DNA of 64,000 bases. It comes from Raineyella sp. W15-4. Lineage in GTDB: Bacteria; Actinomycetota; Actinomycetes; Propionibacteriales; Propionibacteriaceae. Positions 12,832 through 24,372 of the stretch are shown here, in pieces (positions within the stretch are counted from its first letter, which is position 1; each line of letters opens with the position of its first letter). The position numbers and the translations under genes are program-made. The notes beneath the pieces are model-generated. The model searched no databases and had not been told where the DNA came from. It saw only the letters and a program-made list of their open reading frames with translations. The stretch covers positions 1,178,001 through 1,242,000 of the forward strand of contig NZ_CP137079.1 in the NCBI RefSeq assembly GCF_033170155.1, in the 5' to 3' direction.

Positions 12832-14826
12832 CTATCGGGCGGCTCCGCCGATCGGGTCGGCCCCCGCGCCGGAGCTGGTCCCACTCGCCTTCGCAGCGGC
12901 TCGGTTGGCCTGCTCCTGCAGGGCCGAGTGCAGGCGCAGTTCCGGCACGCGGAAGAACCAGGTCAGCACGAAGGCGACCAGCAGCACACCCATGGCGACC
13001 CAGTAGATGGTGATCGCCGAGGTGTTGAACCCGAGCAGGAACGGCCGGGTCAGCCGCGGGTCGGCGCCGTTGAGGAACGAGGTGTCGGAGGTACTGGTGT
13101 CGGTGGAGGCATTGACCGTCGACCCCTGACCGGCGATCCCGTCGATGATCACCGGGACCGCCCGATCCACCACCGCGCGACGCTGAGTCTCGTTGCTGTA
13201 GTCGACCTCCACCCGGCCGTTCACCACGGTCGCGCCGGCCTTGGCCGCGACCTGCTGGAGGATGGCCTGCTTGGCCGCCTCGTTCGGCGCGTGCGCGGTC
13301 GCCTGGGTGGCGGCCTGGTCGAGCTGGGTCTGCACGTTGTCCTCGATCGGGGTGACGATCGGGGTCCAGATCTGGCTCATCGCCCCGGCATTCTGCGGCG
13401 CCTGGGCGACCGCCGGCGTCATCGCGGCGTCGAGAGCGCTGGTGAGCACGTCCTTGTCCTGCATGGCCGTACGGATGTTGCCGGGCATGGCGGAGAACAG
13501 CACCGAGAGCAGGATGGCCGTGCCCAGGGTGCCGCCGATCTGCCGGAAGAACGTGGCCGAGGAGGTGGCCACACCCATGTCGGTCGGCGCCACCGAGTTC
13601 TGGCTGGCGAGGACCAGGCTCTGCATCAGCTGACCGAGACCCAGACCGATGATCGCCATGCCGCCGGCGACGAACAAGAACTGGCTGTCGACGGTGATGA
13701 AGGTGAGATAGAAGAAGCCACCGGCGACCAGCGCGGTGCCGAGGACGGGGAACAGCCGGTATCTGCCGGTCCGGGAGATCAGCTGCCCGGAGACGATCGA
13801 GGCCACCATCAGACCGCCGATCATCGGGAGGGTGGCGAAGCCGGACTCGGTCGGCGACATCCCCATCACGATCTGCAGGTAGAGCGGCAGGGTCATCATC
13901 GCGCCGAACATGCCGAAGCCCACCAGGGCACCGAGGACGGTGGCCATCGAGAACACGCCGGAGCGGAAGATCCGCAGTGGGATGATCGCGTCGCGACCCA
14001 TGTGGTTCTCGATGATCAGGAAGGCGACGATGCCGACCAGCCCGACGACGATGCAGGTGATGGACGCCGCGGAGGTCCAGCCCCACGTACGACCCTGCTC
14101 GGCGACCAGCAGCAGCGGGACGAGCGCGACGACGACCGAGGTGGCGCCCCACCAGTCGATCCGGACGCGATGGTGCTCGAATCGGGGCAGGTGCAGGAAG
14201 GCGAGCACCATGGCCAGGGCGACCAGGCCGATCGGCACGTTGACCAGGAACACCCAGCGCCAGCCGGCGATCCAGGCGATCGTCGCGGTGCCGGCGAACA
14301 GGCCGCCGACCAACGGGCCGATGACGGCCGAGACGCCGAAGACGGCGAGGAAGTAGCCCTGATACTTGGCCCGCTCCCGCGGGGCCAGCATGTCGCCCAT
14401 GATCGCCAGCGGCAGCGACATCAGGCCGCCGGCGCCGATCCCCTGGAAGGCACGGAACGCGGCCAGCAGGTACATCGAGGTGGAGAACGACGACAGCAGC
14501 GAGCCGAGGATGAAGACGGTGATGGAGAAGATGTAGAGCGGCCGGCGGCCGAAGACGTCGGACAGCTTGCCGTAGATCGGGGTGGCGATCGTCGAGGTGA
14601 TGAGGTACGCGGTGGTCACCCAGGCCTGCTTGTCGAGGCCGTGCAGGTCGTCGCCGATGGTACGGATCGCCGTGCCGACGATCGTCTGGTCGAGCGACGA
14701 CAGGAACATGCCGGCCATCAGTCCGTAGATGACCAGCATGATCTGCTGGTGGGACATGACCGGGCGGGGCGCCGTCGCCGCGCTGGCGCGGGGTGCGGCC
14801 GGCTCGGATTCGAGCATGGCGGACAC
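12832..14826 (-). CDS. DHA2-family MFS drug exporter (EmrB/QacA type)
   Basis: 664 residues from a GTG at 14826, five bases after GGAG; an ATG at 14817 is less well placed. About 14 membrane helices are visible, with the DHA2 signatures DQTIVGTAIRTI in helix 1 and the GKLSDVFGRRP loop between helices 2 and 3. A long extracytoplasmic loop (about 120 residues, Ala/Gln-rich) lies before the last helix. Such proteins export drugs or dyes using the proton gradient. No regulator gene adjoins it. The C-terminus is a polar Ala/Gly tail. Confidence 0.88.
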   Translation of the reverse strand: MSAMLESEPAAPRASAATAPRPVMSHQQIMLVIYGLMAGMFLSSLDQTIVGTAIRTIGDDLHGLDKQAWVTTAYLITSTIATPIYGKLSDVFGRRPLYIFSITVFILGSLLSSFSTSMYLLAAFRAFQGIGAGGLMSLPLAIMGDMLAPRERAKYQGYFLAVFGVSAVIGPLVGGLFAGTATIAWIAGWRWVFLVNVPIGLVALAMVLAFLHLPRFEHHRVRIDWWGATSVVVALVPLLLVAEQGRTWGWTSAASITCIVVGLVGIVAFLIIENHMGRDAIIPLRIFRSGVFSMATVLGALVGFGMFGAMMTLPLYLQIVMGMSPTESGFATLPMIGGLMVASIVSGQLISRTGRYRLFPVLGTALVAGGFFYLTFITVDSQFLFVAGGMAIIGLGLGQLMQSLVLASQNSVAPTDMGVATSSATFFRQIGGTLGTAILLSVLFSAMPGNIRTAMQDKDVLTSALDAAMTPAVAQAPQNAGAMSQIWTPIVTPIEDNVQTQLDQAATQATAHAPNEAAKQAILQQVAAKAGATVVNGRVEVDYSNETQRRAVVDRAVPVIIDGIAGQGSTVNASTDTSTSDTSFLNGADPRLTRPFLLGFNTSAITIYWVAMGVLLVAFVLTWFFRVPELRLHSALQEQANRAAAKASGTSSGAGADPIGGAAR

Positions 14827-15161
14827 AGAGTCTCCTTGCTTTCCTTGTGGTGCGGATCGCTGCGTGGCCGGTCCGGGTCCGGTCCGGGGTCCCGTCCTGC
14901 TGGAGGCCGGCGAAGAGAGCGATCCGTGCAGCCCATGCAGTTTTGCGCGTAGTGCAAGAATTTTCAAGTGCGGGTCCGTCGGCCCGGGCAACGACGGCCG
15001 TCGGGCACCGTCACGGGGACGAGCACCCTCACGGTCGAGGGGCGCCCCGGCGTGTACGGGTGGCGCCGTTGCCGATTCCTTAGTCTGCCACTCCGGGGTC
15101 GGTCAGTGGGGCCGGGTGGTGAGCGGTGCGCCAGCCGGCGGCGGCGCGACAGTGGGTGCGT
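14827..15161. other. Gene-free leader of the exporter gene
   Basis: Apart from the ribosome site of the exporter, this 335-bp stretch shows no credible ORF, tRNA or strong hairpin. It probably carries the exporter promoter on the minus strand. No repressor palindrome stands out. Confidence 0.5.
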
Positions 15162-18599: not shown

Positions 18600-19337
18600 T
18601 CACGATGCAAGGCCCTCGCGTGTGGCGACGGCGAGGCCCTCACGGGTGGCGACGGCGAGGCCCTCACGGGTGGCGACGGCGAGCCCCTCACGCTCGGCGA
18701 CGGCGAGGCGTACGGCGGGGGCGATGTCGCCGCTGAGCAGTGCGAGCGCGGGCATCGAGGTGGTCGGGTTCAGCGCGACGTTGCGGCGGACGGCCTTCTT
18801 GGCGTCTGTGCTCAGCGCCGTCAGTACGTCGACGGGGGTGTTCGGGTTGGCGGCGACGCACTGGCGTGTGCGGACGTCGTAGGCGGCGAGCACGGTCAGG
18901 GTCTCACTGTCCGTTGCCGGGTCGGCTGCCGCGGTCTCGCGTTGCTGTGGTGACCAGGCCGACACCTCCGCGTACGCGGGCAGGTGCCGGACGGCGAGCT
19001 GCCGCTCGGCGGCGGCGGAGACCGTGCCGTCGGCGTCCTGGCACAGGGTCCGCAGCACGTGCGCGGTGGTCGCCGGGTTGTAGGCGACCGCGCGCCGCAC
19101 CCTCGCCTCCTCATGCGTGGCGAGGTCTTTCAGGACATGCTTCGGGCAGGAGGGGTTGTGCGCCATCTTCGGGTTGGTCGACGGATGCCTGCGCGCGAGG
19201 ATCGTCAGGGCCTCAGTGGACGTCGCGGGGTCGGCGGCGGTCGCAGCGAGCCGCTGGCTGCGCCGCTTCTCGGCCCTCACCTCGTGACGGTGACGCTGCT
19301 GTGACGTGATGCTGTCGTGAAGATCCATGTCCATCAT
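18600..19337 (-). CDS. Leucine-rich-repeat-variant (LRV-like) protein
   Basis: About 245 residues from ATG 19337; ATGs at 19334 and 19328 are alternatives and none has a strong ribosome site. The body consists of roughly 24-residue helical repeats with the pattern R-x-x-VA-x-NP-x-T-x3-VL-x-x-L, as in LRV proteins that form curved superhelices and bind partners. The C-terminus ends in four near-identical octapeptides (REGLAVAT) encoded by 24-bp tandem repeats. It lies downstream of the lanthipeptide precursor on the same strand; any functional link is unproven. Confidence 0.6.
   Translation of the reverse strand: MMDMDLHDSITSQQRHRHEVRAEKRRSQRLAATAADPATSTEALTILARRHPSTNPKMAHNPSCPKHVLKDLATHEEARVRRAVAYNPATTAHVLRTLCQDADGTVSAAAERQLAVRHLPAYAEVSAWSPQQRETAAADPATDSETLTVLAAYDVRTRQCVAANPNTPVDVLTALSTDAKKAVRRNVALNPTTSMPALALLSGDIAPAVRLAVAEREGLAVATREGLAVATREGLAVATREGLAS
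18611..18706. repeat. Four 24-bp tandem repeats
   Basis: Units start at 18611, 18635, 18659 and 18683. The middle two are identical, the outer two carry a few changes. They encode the repeated REGLAVAT tail of the LRV-like protein and are likely to vary in number between strains. Confidence 0.8.
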
Positions 19338-19377
19338 CTGCGGGGGAAAGCGGGTCGGCGTGCCGGACCGGGCCGGC

Positions 19378-19412
19378 GTGCCGCGGTCCCCCGGGGGCGG
19401 CGACCGCGGCAC
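19378..19412 (-). terminator. Hairpin after the lanthipeptide precursor gene
   Basis: GTGCCGCGGTC at 19378-19388 and its perfect complement at 19402-19412 enclose a C/G-rich loop. It begins 15 bp after the precursor stop codon, so it probably ends or attenuates the lanKC-lanA message before the LRV-like gene. Confidence 0.65.
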
Positions 19413-19426
19413 GGATCGGGGAGGAC

Positions 19427-19552
19427 TCAGCACACAGCAGATCCAGTGGATAGGCAGAGGGACGGGCTGAAGGTGCTGAATGAGGGGATAGCGACGGTCC
19501 TGTCGGCAGGAACTTCGAGTTTCTGCAGGTCAAGCAGGAAGCGATCGGGCAT
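19427..19552 (-). CDS. Class III lanthipeptide precursor (labyrinthopeptin-like)
   Basis: 41 residues. The ATG at 19552 starts four bases after the LanKC stop and has a strong GGGAGGTGA ribosome site, so the two genes are coupled. The leader contains LLDLQKLE (residues 6-13), the helical motif class III synthetases recognise. The core has two consecutive labionin-type motifs: STFSPSLC (Ser26, Ser29, Cys33; S-x2-S-x3-C) and STGSAVC (Ser35, Ser38, Cys41; S-x2-S-x2-C), ending at the final Cys. The layout closely parallels the labyrinthopeptins, including an STGS second ring, but lacks their extra disulfide cysteines. Product structure and bioactivity are inferred only. Confidence 0.88.
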   Translation of the reverse strand: MPDRFLLDLQKLEVPADRTVAIPSFSTFSPSLCLSTGSAVC

Positions 19553-19555
19553 GGT

Positions 19556-22225
19556 TCACCTCCCTCCGAGTGAGTGGGCGCAGGAGTCGGCGGAGGCAGT
19601 GACCGTGGCGGTCGGCAGCAGGAGCGGCAGCGTCTCCTGCGCCGGATAGTCCGAAGCGTGGGCGAGCAGACCGTAGGCGTCCAACGCCAGCAGCACCCCA
19701 GCCGATCCGGTGGCGAGGTCGCAGGACAGGCGCAGCAGCCCGTCGCCTGCGAAGCCGATCCCAGCAGCATGGCGGACGGCGTGAAGTTTCAGGGCCTGGG
19801 CATGGGCATCGAGAGCGGCTCGCGATACGGCGGTCGCCAGGCCCTGACGTGCGAGGGTGAGGTGGAGCAGCATCAGCCCGCTGCGTCCGGTGAACAGCCC
19901 TGATTGCACCGTGAAGGGTGCGCTGGCGGCGCGCGAGATGCCGTCGAGCGCGGTGGCGTACTTCTCCGATGGCGCCAGATGCAGAAGCAGTTGGGCAAGC
20001 ACGATCCCGATCCCGGCCGATCCCGATGCGAGGTAAGGCATGAGCCGCCATCCCTCGTCCACCTGCAGTGAGCCGTCGTCTGCGGTGCGACAGTGGAGGA
20101 GGTCGTCGTCAAGTGCGTCCATCGCGAGGCGCAGATACTCGCTCTCCCGGGTGCGCTCGAAGAGCCGCAGCGCGAACAGGGCAGTTCCCGACGCGCCCCA
20201 CATCAGCCCGGCGCCCCGCGATGTCACCGGGGTGTGCTCCGTGAGCTTGGGGAGCATGGCGCGCCTCTGCCGCAGGGTGTGCGCGATCCGGGCGGCGTCC
20301 TCGAGCAGGCCAGGATCGCGATTCGCCTCGGAGAGGAAGAGCAGACCGACTCCGGGCAGACCGGCGTACAGGTCATTTCCCAGCTCATCGTGCGTGGTGC
20401 CGCGCAGTCGGTGCAGGATGGCGTCTGCCAGGTGGTGCTCGCCACTGCGGCGATGCACCCAGGCGGCACCGGCGAGCCCGTCGTAGAGACCCAGGTTGGT
20501 GTCCGCGGCTGCAAGTGCGGCCTCCGTGGCGTGCCGAAACCAACTCAGCGCAAGCGGGTTCACATCGAGCGAGGCTTCCCGCATCGCGTGGATCACTCCG
20601 CCCGCACCGTGGGCAAGACCGATGCCGTTCTCGTCGAACTGCGTGGGGTCGCCGGGCCACAGCCGGTCGGAGCGGGAGAAGTCCGGCGCCGCGGCATCGA
20701 GCGACCTGCCGATCATCACCGCGATCTCGGAGATCCCAGCCTCCGAGTCGACATCCCAGGCCCGTAGCGCCGTCTGGGCGGCTCGGCCGAGCTGTGACGG
20801 CGGTCGCAACGACTGAGGCGTCGGGTCGATGACAGTACGGATGCCCTCTGCCCAGCTCTCGGGCAGCTCGTAGAGCCGGCGGGCGTGGTCGAGCAGGTCG
20901 TCGATCTTCTCGCGATCGAGCGCCACGAGCGGCGTCAGCGGACAGAACATGGCGAGCTCGATGCACGCGAGGGCGTACAGGTCGGCAGCGGCGCCACCAC
21001 GGCCGTCCGGTGGCACGAAGCCGGGCGCACCCATCTGCATGGGGGTGTCGTCGCGCACGGGTGTGCTGAACTCCAGGTCGACCAGCACCGCGCGGCTGTC
21101 CGGGGTGATCATCACGTTGCCCGGATGGAGATCGCCGTGCGTGAAACCCGCCGCGTGCAGCCTGGTGAGTGCGACACGCACCTGGTCGCAGATCGCGACC
21201 GCCCAGTCGCGGTACGCGACGAAGTCTCTGGGGCGCGAGTCGGATCTGATCTGCGGGGAACGCCGGATCAGCTCGCTGTGGAGAGTGACGTCTCCGAGGT
21301 GCTCCAGCACGAGGAAGACGTGATCTCCGACCTGCGCCAGCTCCCGCACGGGGACGATGCCGGGGCCTGCGGCGTCCGTGAGCCGCGCATGTTCGTCGCG
21401 TACCCGCTGGGCCGCATCGCGACCGTCCGGGCTGTATCCGATGAACGGACGCCCTTCCTTCAGCACGACTGGCGCGCCCTGCCGATCGGTGCCGAGATAC
21501 GTGCCGCCGGCATTGGAGAAGGCCAGAGCACTCTGCACCGTGTACGGGAAGTCTGCCGGCGCGGCGCCATCCCCGAGGCTGTCCCATTGCTGCTGCAGAA
21601 AGTCCGGAACCGTCACCCAGGCCGGCGGCGCGAAGTACGGCGTCCGGCGATCCTCGACCAGGGTGCCGTCGGGTGCCAGGAGGGCGTACCTCCGATGCCC
21701 GGCCTCGCTGCGCAGACGCGCCTGGCTGAAGGCGCCATAGCGTACGAAGGCCGGACCGCGGTGCCAACGCAGGTCGGAAAGGATGTGCGGCGATGGCAGG
21801 TGACCCAGGGCCGTGTCGAGGTCGGTCAGTGCGGCGTGCAGGCCCTGCTCATCGGTGGGGTAGATGGTGACGAGCTTCGCCGAGCTCCCGCGATCGGCGT
21901 CCTTGCTGAGTTGCGCGGCGACGGTGGCGTGATCGACCAGATGCTTGAACGCCAGCCCGTGCGCGTGGCAGTACCGGGCGGCGACGTCGACGACCTGCGC
22001 TGCATGGTCGGGAGTCGCCGACAGGTGGATCTTCCAGCCCTGGTCGGGCAGGGTGATCCCTGGGGGATGCAGGTGAGCCCAGGTGCCGTCCTCGACGCGA
22101 AGCCAGCCGTCCCAGTCCAGAGCGGCATCGACCGTCAGAGGCCGCTTCCGCTGCCCTCGGCGCCGGGACGGATGATCGTAGAACGTCGGATCGACTGCCG
22201 CGAAGCGGTACAACTGACCATCCAT
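19556..22225 (-). CDS. Class III lanthipeptide synthetase LanKC
   Basis: 889 residues from ATG 22225, five bases after GGAGG; the frame is open 16 codons further but without a ribosome site. It has the three-domain class III plan: an N-terminal phospho-Ser/Thr lyase (about 1-215), a Ser/Thr kinase (about 225-480; VVLKEGRP with Lys256, HGDLHPGN with Asp365, VDLE with Asp383), and a LanC-like cyclase (about 530-889). The cyclase shows Gly-rich repeats (GLAHGAGG, ASGSAGIG) but no Cys/Cys/His zinc site, as expected for class III. It should phosphorylate precursor serines, eliminate phosphate and form labionin or lanthionine rings. Confidence 0.92.
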   Translation of the reverse strand: MDGQLYRFAAVDPTFYDHPSRRRGQRKRPLTVDAALDWDGWLRVEDGTWAHLHPPGITLPDQGWKIHLSATPDHAAQVVDVAARYCHAHGLAFKHLVDHATVAAQLSKDADRGSSAKLVTIYPTDEQGLHAALTDLDTALGHLPSPHILSDLRWHRGPAFVRYGAFSQARLRSEAGHRRYALLAPDGTLVEDRRTPYFAPPAWVTVPDFLQQQWDSLGDGAAPADFPYTVQSALAFSNAGGTYLGTDRQGAPVVLKEGRPFIGYSPDGRDAAQRVRDEHARLTDAAGPGIVPVRELAQVGDHVFLVLEHLGDVTLHSELIRRSPQIRSDSRPRDFVAYRDWAVAICDQVRVALTRLHAAGFTHGDLHPGNVMITPDSRAVLVDLEFSTPVRDDTPMQMGAPGFVPPDGRGGAAADLYALACIELAMFCPLTPLVALDREKIDDLLDHARRLYELPESWAEGIRTVIDPTPQSLRPPSQLGRAAQTALRAWDVDSEAGISEIAVMIGRSLDAAAPDFSRSDRLWPGDPTQFDENGIGLAHGAGGVIHAMREASLDVNPLALSWFRHATEAALAAADTNLGLYDGLAGAAWVHRRSGEHHLADAILHRLRGTTHDELGNDLYAGLPGVGLLFLSEANRDPGLLEDAARIAHTLRQRRAMLPKLTEHTPVTSRGAGLMWGASGTALFALRLFERTRESEYLRLAMDALDDDLLHCRTADDGSLQVDEGWRLMPYLASGSAGIGIVLAQLLLHLAPSEKYATALDGISRAASAPFTVQSGLFTGRSGLMLLHLTLARQGLATAVSRAALDAHAQALKLHAVRHAAGIGFAGDGLLRLSCDLATGSAGVLLALDAYGLLAHASDYPAQETLPLLLPTATVTASADSCAHSLGGR

Positions 22226-22357
22226 CGGATCCTCCGGTCCGGTCACTCGGTGCGGTCTGACCTCCGCGCGCACGGTCGGGACTCACTCGAGCCTCAGCCG
22301 AGGACAGCGTTGCCCGGAGACGGCCCCATTCTGTGCGGACCAGGCCCGGCGGCTCCA

Positions 22358-22435: not shown

Positions 22436-23104
22436 TCAGTCCAGCAGCCCCTCGCTGGTCGCCCATGCCGCAAGCTCCGCGCGGGAGGCGAGGCCATACT
22501 TGGCGAGCAATCGCTCGACCGCGCTTTTGACTCCGCCGTGCGACATCGTCAACTCCTTGGCGATTTCGCGATTGGTCTTGCCCTGCGCCAGCGCACGCAC
22601 GATCAGCTTCTCGCGCGCGTTGAGCGGATTGGGGTCATGGCTATCGTGGCCGCCCCGCCGTCGATAGTCTGCGAGCAGCCCGGGCAGCACCCGCTCATTG
22701 ATCACCGAGTTGCCTGCCGCCGCGGCTCGCACTGCGCGGGCAAGGTCAGGTGGGTCGATGTCTTTCAGCAGATAGCTCGTCGCGCCGGCGTCGATGGCGT
22801 CGTGCACGTCGCGGTCACCCTCGAAGGTGGTGAGCACCACGACGGCCGCTCCGCTGTCCCCGGCGACGATCTGTCGGGTCGCGGTGATCCCGTCGCCGTC
22901 AGGCATCCGCAGATCCATCAGCACGACGTCGGGGTGCAATTCCGCCGTTGCGGCGACGGCCAGCGGTCCCGACGATGCTTCGCCGGTGACCTCGATGTCT
23001 GCGTACGGCGCCAAACTTACCCGAAGACCGTTCCGGATCACTGTGTAGTCATCGACGACGAGCACACGAATGTGCTCGTCATGTCGCTCACGTGCTTTCA
23101 TCAT
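22436..23104 (-). CDS. NarL/LuxR-type response regulator
   Basis: 222 residues from ATG 23104, which overlaps the kinase stop as ATGA. The receiver domain (about 12-130) shows the DD pair in LVVDDYTVIRNG, the phospho-acceptor Asp in VLMDLRMPDGDG and the Lys in YLLKDID. A LuxR-type helix-turn-helix (about 155-215) carries LNAREKLIVRALAQGKTNREIA. It should be phosphorylated by the adjacent kinase and control the lanthipeptide operon that follows. Confidence 0.92.
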   Translation of the reverse strand: MMKARERHDEHIRVLVVDDYTVIRNGLRVSLAPYADIEVTGEASSGPLAVAATAELHPDVVLMDLRMPDGDGITATRQIVAGDSGAAVVVLTTFEGDRDVHDAIDAGATSYLLKDIDPPDLARAVRAAAAGNSVINERVLPGLLADYRRRGGHDSHDPNPLNAREKLIVRALAQGKTNREIAKELTMSHGGVKSAVERLLAKYGLASRAELAAWATSEGLLD

Positions 23105-24372
23105 GCCTTCCCGAGAACAGGTTCCTGTGCTTCCAGGGGCAACAGTGCACGGGTCTCCCATCCGCCACCGGCGCGTGGCGCGCTGATGAGAGTTCCGCCG
23201 AGAAGCTCGGCCCGTTCACGCATGCCGATCAGCCCATAGCCGGGTCGCGTCGGGCCGGACGGATTTGCGTCAGGAGCCCTGCTCTCTTCATTCGACACCC
23301 GGATTTCCAGCCCTTGCGTACCACGCCTGACGGTGACCGTGACACGCGCGTCAGGGGCATGGGTCCGCGCATTACCCAGTGACTCCTGCACAATCCGGTA
23401 ACACGCCAGCGCCGTACTGTACGTCACGTCCGTCACTTCGTCGTCAATGTGAAGGCAGACGATCTGACCGCCGGCCGCCGCCGCTGCCGTCAGCTGCGCG
23501 AGGCCCTCACGCAGGGTGATCCCCGGCATCAGGGCATGCCCGCGACGGGAATCGTCGTCCGTCTGGCGCAGGAGCTTGATCGTCTCGCGGGTGCTCTTGA
23601 GGGCGCTCTCACCCTCATCTCGCACCGTGCGGAGGGCATCACGGAGGACGGAGACATCATTCGTCTGCAGGTTCAGCGTTCCCTTGCTGTGGAGCACGAT
23701 GCTGCCCAGATGGCGCGCGAGAGTGTCGTGGATCTCGCGTGCGATCCGCGTGCGCTCGGCATTGATCGCAGACTTCCGGATCTCCGCGGAAGCCAGACGA
23801 AGAGCATCGGCTCTTTCTGCCTCCAGTGCCGCTCGTTTGCGCTGATTGGCGTAAAGGAGGCCGGCGAGGATGGCAAAGACGTACGGTGGGATCACGCGAA
23901 GAATTATCGAAATGATTGCGAAGATGGTTACGCCGGCGGCCGAGGTCCCGATAACCAGGTAGATCCCGAGATCGATAGCAACCGCGAGGGCGACCGAGGA
24001 CACCCATTTTCGTTGTCTGCTGAGCGCCACCAATATCACCAGGGAGAGTGGGAGCGCCGGACTCAGCATGAGCATGCGATCAACGATGAGCAACACTCCG
24101 CCCTGGAACAGGGCAAAGGTGACCCAGAAAACGGTCAGCGGCGCGACGGTCGCCCAGCAGATGACGGCTGCCTGCAACGTCAGTGCTGCCAGTGCGCCCC
24201 ACACCACCATCGGCGCGAGTTGTGGACCGAGCGCGTGCGGGAAGAAGAACTTTGTGGCGACCGCGACGCCGAGCAGGAAATAGCCGGCACCGACGACCCA
24301 GCAGAGGATCGCCCAGAGCCAATCGGGGAGGATCAGGCGGGGACGGTCCGGGTGGGTGGGCACCGAAGTCAC
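23101..24372 (-). CDS. HisKA_3-type sensor histidine kinase
   Basis: 423 residues. Five to six membrane helices (about 15-180) lack a large extracellular domain, followed by a HisKA_3 dimerisation helix with the phospho-acceptor His in TRIAREIHDTLARHLG and an ATPase domain with NARTHAP and GYGLIGMRERAELLGG. Such intramembrane sensors often answer cell-envelope peptides. Translationally coupled to the response regulator and placed upstream of lanKC, it may sense the lanthipeptide or envelope stress. Confidence 0.9.
   Translation of the reverse strand: MTSVPTHPDRPRLILPDWLWAILCWVVGAGYFLLGVAVATKFFFPHALGPQLAPMVVWGALAALTLQAAVICWATVAPLTVFWVTFALFQGGVLLIVDRMLMLSPALPLSLVILVALSRQRKWVSSVALAVAIDLGIYLVIGTSAAGVTIFAIISIILRVIPPYVFAILAGLLYANQRKRAALEAERADALRLASAEIRKSAINAERTRIAREIHDTLARHLGSIVLHSKGTLNLQTNDVSVLRDALRTVRDEGESALKSTRETIKLLRQTDDDSRRGHALMPGITLREGLAQLTAAAAAGGQIVCLHIDDEVTDVTYSTALACYRIVQESLGNARTHAPDARVTVTVRRGTQGLEIRVSNEESRAPDANPSGPTRPGYGLIGMRERAELLGGTLISAPRAGGGWETRALLPLEAQEPVLGKA

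Follow-up and report, generated by a model that had tools for sequence, protein, structure and literature searches.

Organization of the locus

The window (the whole 64-kb stretch of DNA that was analysed) carries on its minus strand a gene for a class III lanthionine synthetase with lyase, kinase and zinc-less cyclase domains (lanKC, 19556–22225), which was assigned using NF038151, Pfam domains and alignment to solved chains. It is followed directly by a small open reading frame, lanA (19427–19552), whose minus-strand reading from 19552 to 19427 gives the 41-residue peptide MPDRFLLDLQKLEVPADRTVAIPSFSTFSPSLCLSTGSAVC and a stop codon; the plus-strand reading of the same interval was rejected, as it contains in-frame stops. 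This is exactly the peptide that the initial annotation, which named no strand, placed directly after lanKC. The longest open reading frame of lanKC begins with GTG at 22273, and the ATG of MDGQLYRF is taken as the probable start; LanKC searches used 19556–22216 (886 aa) as the query, to which the LanKC residue numbers below refer.

The end of LanKC reads ...SLGGR followed by TGA, and lanA starts 3 nt past this stop codon on the same strand. The sequence GGGAGGTGA overlaps the lanKC stop codon, and direct reading of the minus strand places a ribosome-binding site, GGAGGGAGGTGA (19556–19567), which includes the TGA, just before the lanA ATG with a 3-nt spacer (19553–19567 together), in agreement with the ribosome site initially claimed. 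Translation of lanA is likely coupled to that of lanKC. On the 3′ side of lanA, folding identified a GC-rich hairpin without a T run, CGTGCCGCGGTC...GACCGCGGCACG (19377–19413, minus strand). The 83-nt stretch at this hairpin folds with −45.2 kcal/mol (z = −1.29) and was equalled by 19 of 200 shuffles, which as a terminator is no better than expected at this composition; that it marks the transcript end is a weak possibility. A consensus scan detected neither promoter-like nor terminator-like sites.

Upstream of lanKC, also on the minus strand, lie genes for a NarL/LuxR-type response regulator (22436–23161 as the longest open reading frame, start not settled; Pfam/NCBIfam) and a HisKA_3 sensor histidine kinase (23101–24372; Pfam). 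The gene directly after lanA (18600–19346, minus strand) encodes a leucine-rich-repeat-variant (LRV) protein whose end is a near-perfect VATREGLA repeat; no homologue of it was found in the 103 loci searched. The GC content of lanKC plus lanA (68.7%) is close to that of the window (69.1%), and composition therefore gives no sign of horizontal transfer; the values for lanA alone, the histidine kinase and the response regulator are 57.9%, 63.8% and 65.4%, respectively.

Characteristics of the precursor peptide

The leader probably comprises residues 1–23 and the core residues 24–41, approximately. The leader carries LLDLQKLE, and the core consists of two successive motifs, S26-x2-S29-x3-C33 (STFSPSLC) and S35-x2-S38-x2-C41 (STGSAVC), the latter ending the peptide; a small open reading frame adjoining lanKC thus combines an LxLQ leader with an S-x2-S-xn-C core, as the initial annotation described. 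In labyrinthopeptins, extra cysteines form a disulfide; here, Cys33 and Cys41 are the only cysteines, and the claim that these extra residues are missing is borne out. Among the open reading frames of 25–90 aa in the window, lanA is the sole one with the leader motif and two terminal S-x2-S-x2-5-C motifs; 60 dinucleotide-preserving shuffles of the window yielded none of this pattern, and two in all when the leader was not required. A search of the producer's own genome at E ≤ 10 returned no copy besides lanA itself, and when 391 genomes of the order, selected from a larger group, were searched likewise, 10 gave matches at E ≤ 0.1, the producer's own included; the nine others (E 0.037–0.093, open frames of 86–271 aa) were judged to be chance matches. 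The exact core string was not found in the literature searched.

The best NCBIfam match of the precursor is the SapB/AmfS model NF033212 (22.8 bits, cut-off 25, E = 7.1e-5), followed by two other class III models (E = 0.034 and 0.042); it scores 21.2 bits against the Pfam RamS family (PF19402; cut-off 24.3, E = 4e-4), 14.8 bits against lanthi_III_a (cut-off 22) and 13.9 bits against lanthi_III_b (cut-off 30). It lies under the curated cut-off of every family matched, and hence these models alone would not name it. Four Microbacterium precursors likewise score below 25 against the SapB/AmfS model (20.8–23.0 bits). The same model takes in precursors of L105 (28.2 bits) and L090 (32.7 bits) above its cut-off, two loci that, together with L006 and L060, we take to be labyrinthopeptin-like from their likeness to LabA1/A2; a match to it is therefore no guide to ring type. 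That such a gene is easily missed, as was initially remarked, accords with a published survey in which approximately 55% of class III precursors are described as unannotated (PMC7268733).

LanKC and its relatives

LanKC scores 842.3 bits against the class III model NF038151 (cut-off 575) and 352.3 bits against the class IV model, which is under the cut-off of 650, and its RamC_N, Pkinase and LANC_like domains all exceed the Pfam cut-offs. Its relatives of solved structure include SalKC and a set of class III LanKC chains (8sao and kin), which are probably ThurKC, since the residues named for that enzyme in PMC10604976 fit these chains with an offset of 3. In an alignment by eye that covered the lyase residues named for ThurKC apart from Arg191, these are kept at Lys62, His64, Lys91, Lys105, Lys114, Asp148 and Arg159, and the kinase motif keeps Asp380/Glu382, as DLE here versus DFE in ThurKC (PMC10604976). 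The Cys/Cys/His zinc positions of NisC are reported as Ser726/Phe770/Asp771 in ThurKC (PMC10604976) and correspond by eye to Ala730, Phe775 and Thr776 here, with neither Cys nor His, as expected of a zinc-less cyclase; Asp771 of ThurKC is replaced in this enzyme and likewise in all seven other relatives in the alignment.

Outside its own genome, the best LanKC matches have up to 42% identity (57 genomes, own included), and 11 of the 198 genomes of the family, again counting its own, match at E ≤ 1e-60, with identities of 41 and 38% for the top two. No LanKC at this threshold is present in three other genomes of the genus, and conservation is therefore visible only at 39–46% LanKC identity. In a scan of named genomes that retained the 80 best out of 586 confirmed loci, the closest three enzymes are from Microbacterium (45–46% identity). 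LanKCs identical to those of Kribbella and Actinopolymorpha occur in other families of the same order (L012 = L080, L005 = L051), which makes Propionibacteriaceae the probable family of the window.

A quick maximum-likelihood tree with SH-aLRT support was calculated for 99 LanKCs, including L132–L135 but not L136. The window LanKC and five Microbacterium enzymes (L043, L044, L045, L068 and L097) form a clade of six (99%), whose sister group of four (100%) contains L132 and L133 from the same family as the window, Actinobaculum L046 and Rhodococcus L047; together they make up a clade of ten (100%). The branch of the window LanKC is long (0.78), and its exact place within the clade of ten is therefore uncertain. 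The labyrinthopeptin-like loci L006, L090, L105 and L060 and the SapB-like loci fall outside this clade. One SapB-like locus, L134 (G387), is from the window's own family, and SapB-like peptides therefore occur in that family as well.

Precursors of related loci

Precursors were sought in 95 LanKC loci (L004–L018 and L043–L122, the latter being the 80 best among 586), leaving out L001–L003 (own genome), L019 (no usable LanKC frame) and L020–L042 (kinase-only or chance matches). The search demanded one [ST]-x2-[ST]-x2-5-C motif and hence leans to that pattern; with the window counted, it gave candidates in 80 of these loci and none in 15, one of which, L097, has a precursor that was found by eye. 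Two such motifs were present in 73 of the 95 loci, and in 51 when only Ser was allowed, and two motifs are likewise described for all of the putative precursors in Brevibacterium (PMC5719810). The double motif that the initial annotation reported is thus usual.

In all six precursors of the window's clade, including that of L097 as read by eye, an L-x-LQ leader precedes two S-x2-S-x2/3-C motifs, and in L043, L044, L045 and L068 the precursor lies directly after lanKC; the conservation of leader and Ser/Ser/Cys spacing on which the initial proposal was staked is therefore found. An alignment of five of these sequences, with L097 left out, has Met1, Leu7, Leu9, Gln10, Glu13, Ser26, Ser29, Cys33, Ser35 and Cys41 invariant; the Ser38 column is shifted by gap placement, and the second Ser is present by motif in each peptide. 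Cys is the last residue of the clade precursors except that of L068, which finishes with Cys-His. The five Microbacterium loci resemble the window in gene order, in a leader of the form L-x-LQ-x-(L/I)E and in the places of the motifs, but differ from it in the residues of the mid-leader and rings, in the leader start ((M)GY, versus MPDRF in the window) and in a LanKC identity of only 39–46%. Their second rings begin with STVS, STLS, SSAS, SSTS and SSTS, and none with STGS. Among the candidates of the 95 loci, which include the best 80 of 586, STGS recurs only in L006, L060 and L105. The likeness to labyrinthopeptins pointed out initially is thus real for these three loci, but it is absent from all five relatives of the window's own clade, and the LanKCs of the labyrinthopeptin-like loci lie elsewhere in the tree; because the closest relatives have other residues, this likeness is weak evidence.

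Several related loci have unusual precursor arrangements. In L097 (5968–8670, Microbacterium sp. ACRRU), LanKC and precursor form one continuous frame of 900 aa, whereas they are separate in the sister locus L068; enzyme and precursor are either naturally fused here or joined by an error in the sequence, and the arrangement recalls the engineered leader fusion described for ThurKC. A class III precursor candidate in L133 (4995–5321, G317) has 18 consecutive Ser in its core, which would permit very many dehydrations. Four identical tandem candidates (MANVLNLQTDVVEVTQETKRRSSWVSRWVCWG), 353 nt apart, follow the LanKC of L130 (135–1292, G162), and five different candidates stand behind one LanKC in L132 (4434–11193, G180), a locus that also has a gene for a prolyl oligopeptidase on its upstream side and one for an ABC exporter on its downstream side. 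L132, L133 and L046, whose LanKCs belong to the group sister to the window's clade, thus differ from the window: a prolyl oligopeptidase is present in all three (by Pfam in L132, as homologues in L046 and L133), an ABC exporter in L132 and L133, and multiple candidates in L132.

Regulatory, transport and protease genes

Each of the five Microbacterium loci of the clade has homologues of both the histidine kinase and the response regulator ahead of lanKC on its strand, with the response regulator directly upstream (query 22436–23125). Response regulator homologues were found in 33 of the 103 loci searched, such regulators being common, and histidine kinase homologues (E ≤ 1e-8) in eight of the 103, all eight from the clade of ten. 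The response regulator is likely the regulator of the cluster, and the histidine kinase is presumably its partner. No evident match to the HK-RR-LanKC-LanA subfamily appeared in the literature searched on lanthipeptides of Propionibacteriaceae and on class III lanthipeptides, avionins or lipolanthines, and two-component systems of Microbacterium.

Neither an exporter nor a leader protease is evident beside lanA. The window shows only weak ABC likenesses, the nearest approximately 19 kb from lanA, and an MFS transporter gene (12832–14991), approximately 4.4 kb beyond lanA with other genes between, has no evident link to it. In the related loci, an ABC exporter is clear in L132 and L133 and likely in L043 (on the other strand), and the same query found none in L044, L045, L068 and L097; a subtilase-like frame approximately 700 nt after lanA in L044 is a possible leader protease there. 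In the producer's own genome, Peptidase_S9_N is matched once and Peptidase_M1 twice, each time outside the window; as 5 and 8 of 14 control genomes, respectively, have these families too, the matches are no more than compatible with a role in leader removal. Pro15 and Pro23 of the precursor may serve as prolyl cleavage sites.

Assessment of the precursor and its ring type

The short length of lanA and its scores under the curated cut-offs would be expected of an open reading frame that arose by chance and is not a gene, but its position, its ribosome-binding site, the uniqueness of its motifs and the fact that all five other LanKC loci of the clade have a precursor that matches it make this highly unlikely. 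The class of LanKC, the uniqueness of the pattern in the window, and the clade precursors with two motifs and the histidine kinase and response regulator genes upstream make it very probable that lanA encodes a true precursor of a class III lanthipeptide, as was initially proposed. In avionin formation, the C-terminal Cys is decarboxylated and the ring then closed. A lipolanthine or avionin-type product would suit the C-terminal Cys and the S-x2-S-x2-C motif of LanA, but a Pfam scan of seven neighbouring proteins revealed neither a flavoprotein decarboxylase nor the product of a fatty-acid or polyketide gene, and the peptides of the clade close with Cys, or with Cys-His in the case of L068; such a product is very improbable.

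The labionin-type assignment of the initial annotation goes beyond the motif, which is described as giving either labionin or lanthionine (PMC7268733, PMC11251773, PMC13380574). Both rings might be labionins, with each Cys adding to one dehydroalanine and the resulting enolate attacking the other, to give a labyrinthopeptin-like bicyclic pair without a disulfide. The two S-x2-S-x2/3-C motifs suggest this, as do reports of rochsin A, with two labionins, and of durhapeptin, whose tandem motifs come with support for two labionin cross-links (PMC13380574). Against it stand the two plain lanthionines reported for each of SapB and AmfS (PMC13380574), the statement of a published predictor that the motif may be either ring type (PMC11251773), the position of LanKC outside the labyrinthopeptin-like enzymes and the absence of STGS from the five clade relatives. 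The positions tied to labionin formation in ThurKC, Arg610, Asp667 and Asp771 (PMC10604976), align by eye with Tyr617, Trp673 and Thr776 here; in L006, which is labyrinthopeptin-like, these positions are occupied by Phe, Tyr and Asn, so that the replacements are no guide to ring type. Two labionins are thus a tentative reading, with somewhat less than an even chance. Plain lanthionines with remaining dehydroalanines, or a mixture of lanthionine and labionin, agree with the best family matches (SapB/AmfS and RamS) and with the two lanthionines of SapB and AmfS (PMC13380574), but the SapB/AmfS model also catches L105 and L090, which leaves the match silent on ring type; we give this reading slightly more than an even chance. 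As for at least one labionin ring, our judgement leans narrowly in its favour. Because ring closure is described as mass neutral (PMC10604976), a labionin equals a lanthionine plus a dehydroalanine in mass, and the loss of four waters that was initially offered as support for two labionins would show dehydration alone.

Comparison with known class III systems

The window locus shares with the SapB/AmfS family (NF033212, PF19402) the LLDLQ leader, two tandem S-x2-S-xn-C motifs and a precursor right after LanKC. It differs in scoring under the curated cut-offs, in a core with neither the Gly-rich stretch nor the LLLCG found in SapB-like precursors (e.g., L085), in a full two-component pair upstream and in a LanKC of another clade. 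Two adjacent short rings are shared with the labyrinthopeptins, some of which also have the STGS second ring (L006, L060 and L105). LanA differs from them in lacking the extra disulfide cysteines and from the A2-like members in a second ring that is one residue shorter; its LanKC also lies in another clade from theirs (the clade of ten, 100%, in a quick tree with a long window branch).

Proposed maturation and implications

We conclude, with a probability of approximately 0.92, that the small open reading frame encodes LanA, the precursor of a class III lanthipeptide with two rings, and that it is co-transcribed and probably translationally coupled with lanKC and modified by its product. On the basis of features read from the DNA (the reading frame, the ribosome-binding site, the leader and ring motifs, the enzyme class and the arrangement conserved in the clade), the following course of modification, ring formation, leader removal and regulation is proposed. 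LanKC would recognize the LLDLQ leader of LanA and phosphorylate and eliminate Ser26, Ser29, Ser35 and Ser38, and perhaps also Ser24, Thr27, Ser31 and Thr36; its metal-independent cyclase would then link Cys33 and Cys41 to dehydroalanines, closing two rings of the lanthionine or labionin type. A general protease whose gene lies elsewhere may cut off the leader, and expression is probably under the control of the histidine kinase and response regulator pair upstream.

To our knowledge, Microbacterium, which holds the nearest relatives, forms no aerial hyphae, and the role of the peptide is therefore an ordinary question. The best-known class III members, SapB and AmfS, are described as developmental surfactants of Streptomyces (PMC13380574). 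A wider reading, which we consider improbable, is that the window and the Microbacterium HK-RR-LanKC-LanA loci constitute a compact, exporter-poor subfamily whose peptide, with labionin in at least one ring, would be a signal sensed by the adjoining histidine kinase, that is, an autoinducer outside the filamentous actinobacteria. The two-ring precursor appears new in sequence and is ordinary for its class. The class III lanthipeptides gain from it one further peptide with two rings, along with a small subfamily in which a two-component pair is conserved, and the case shows by example that the motif by itself does not allow labionin to be called.
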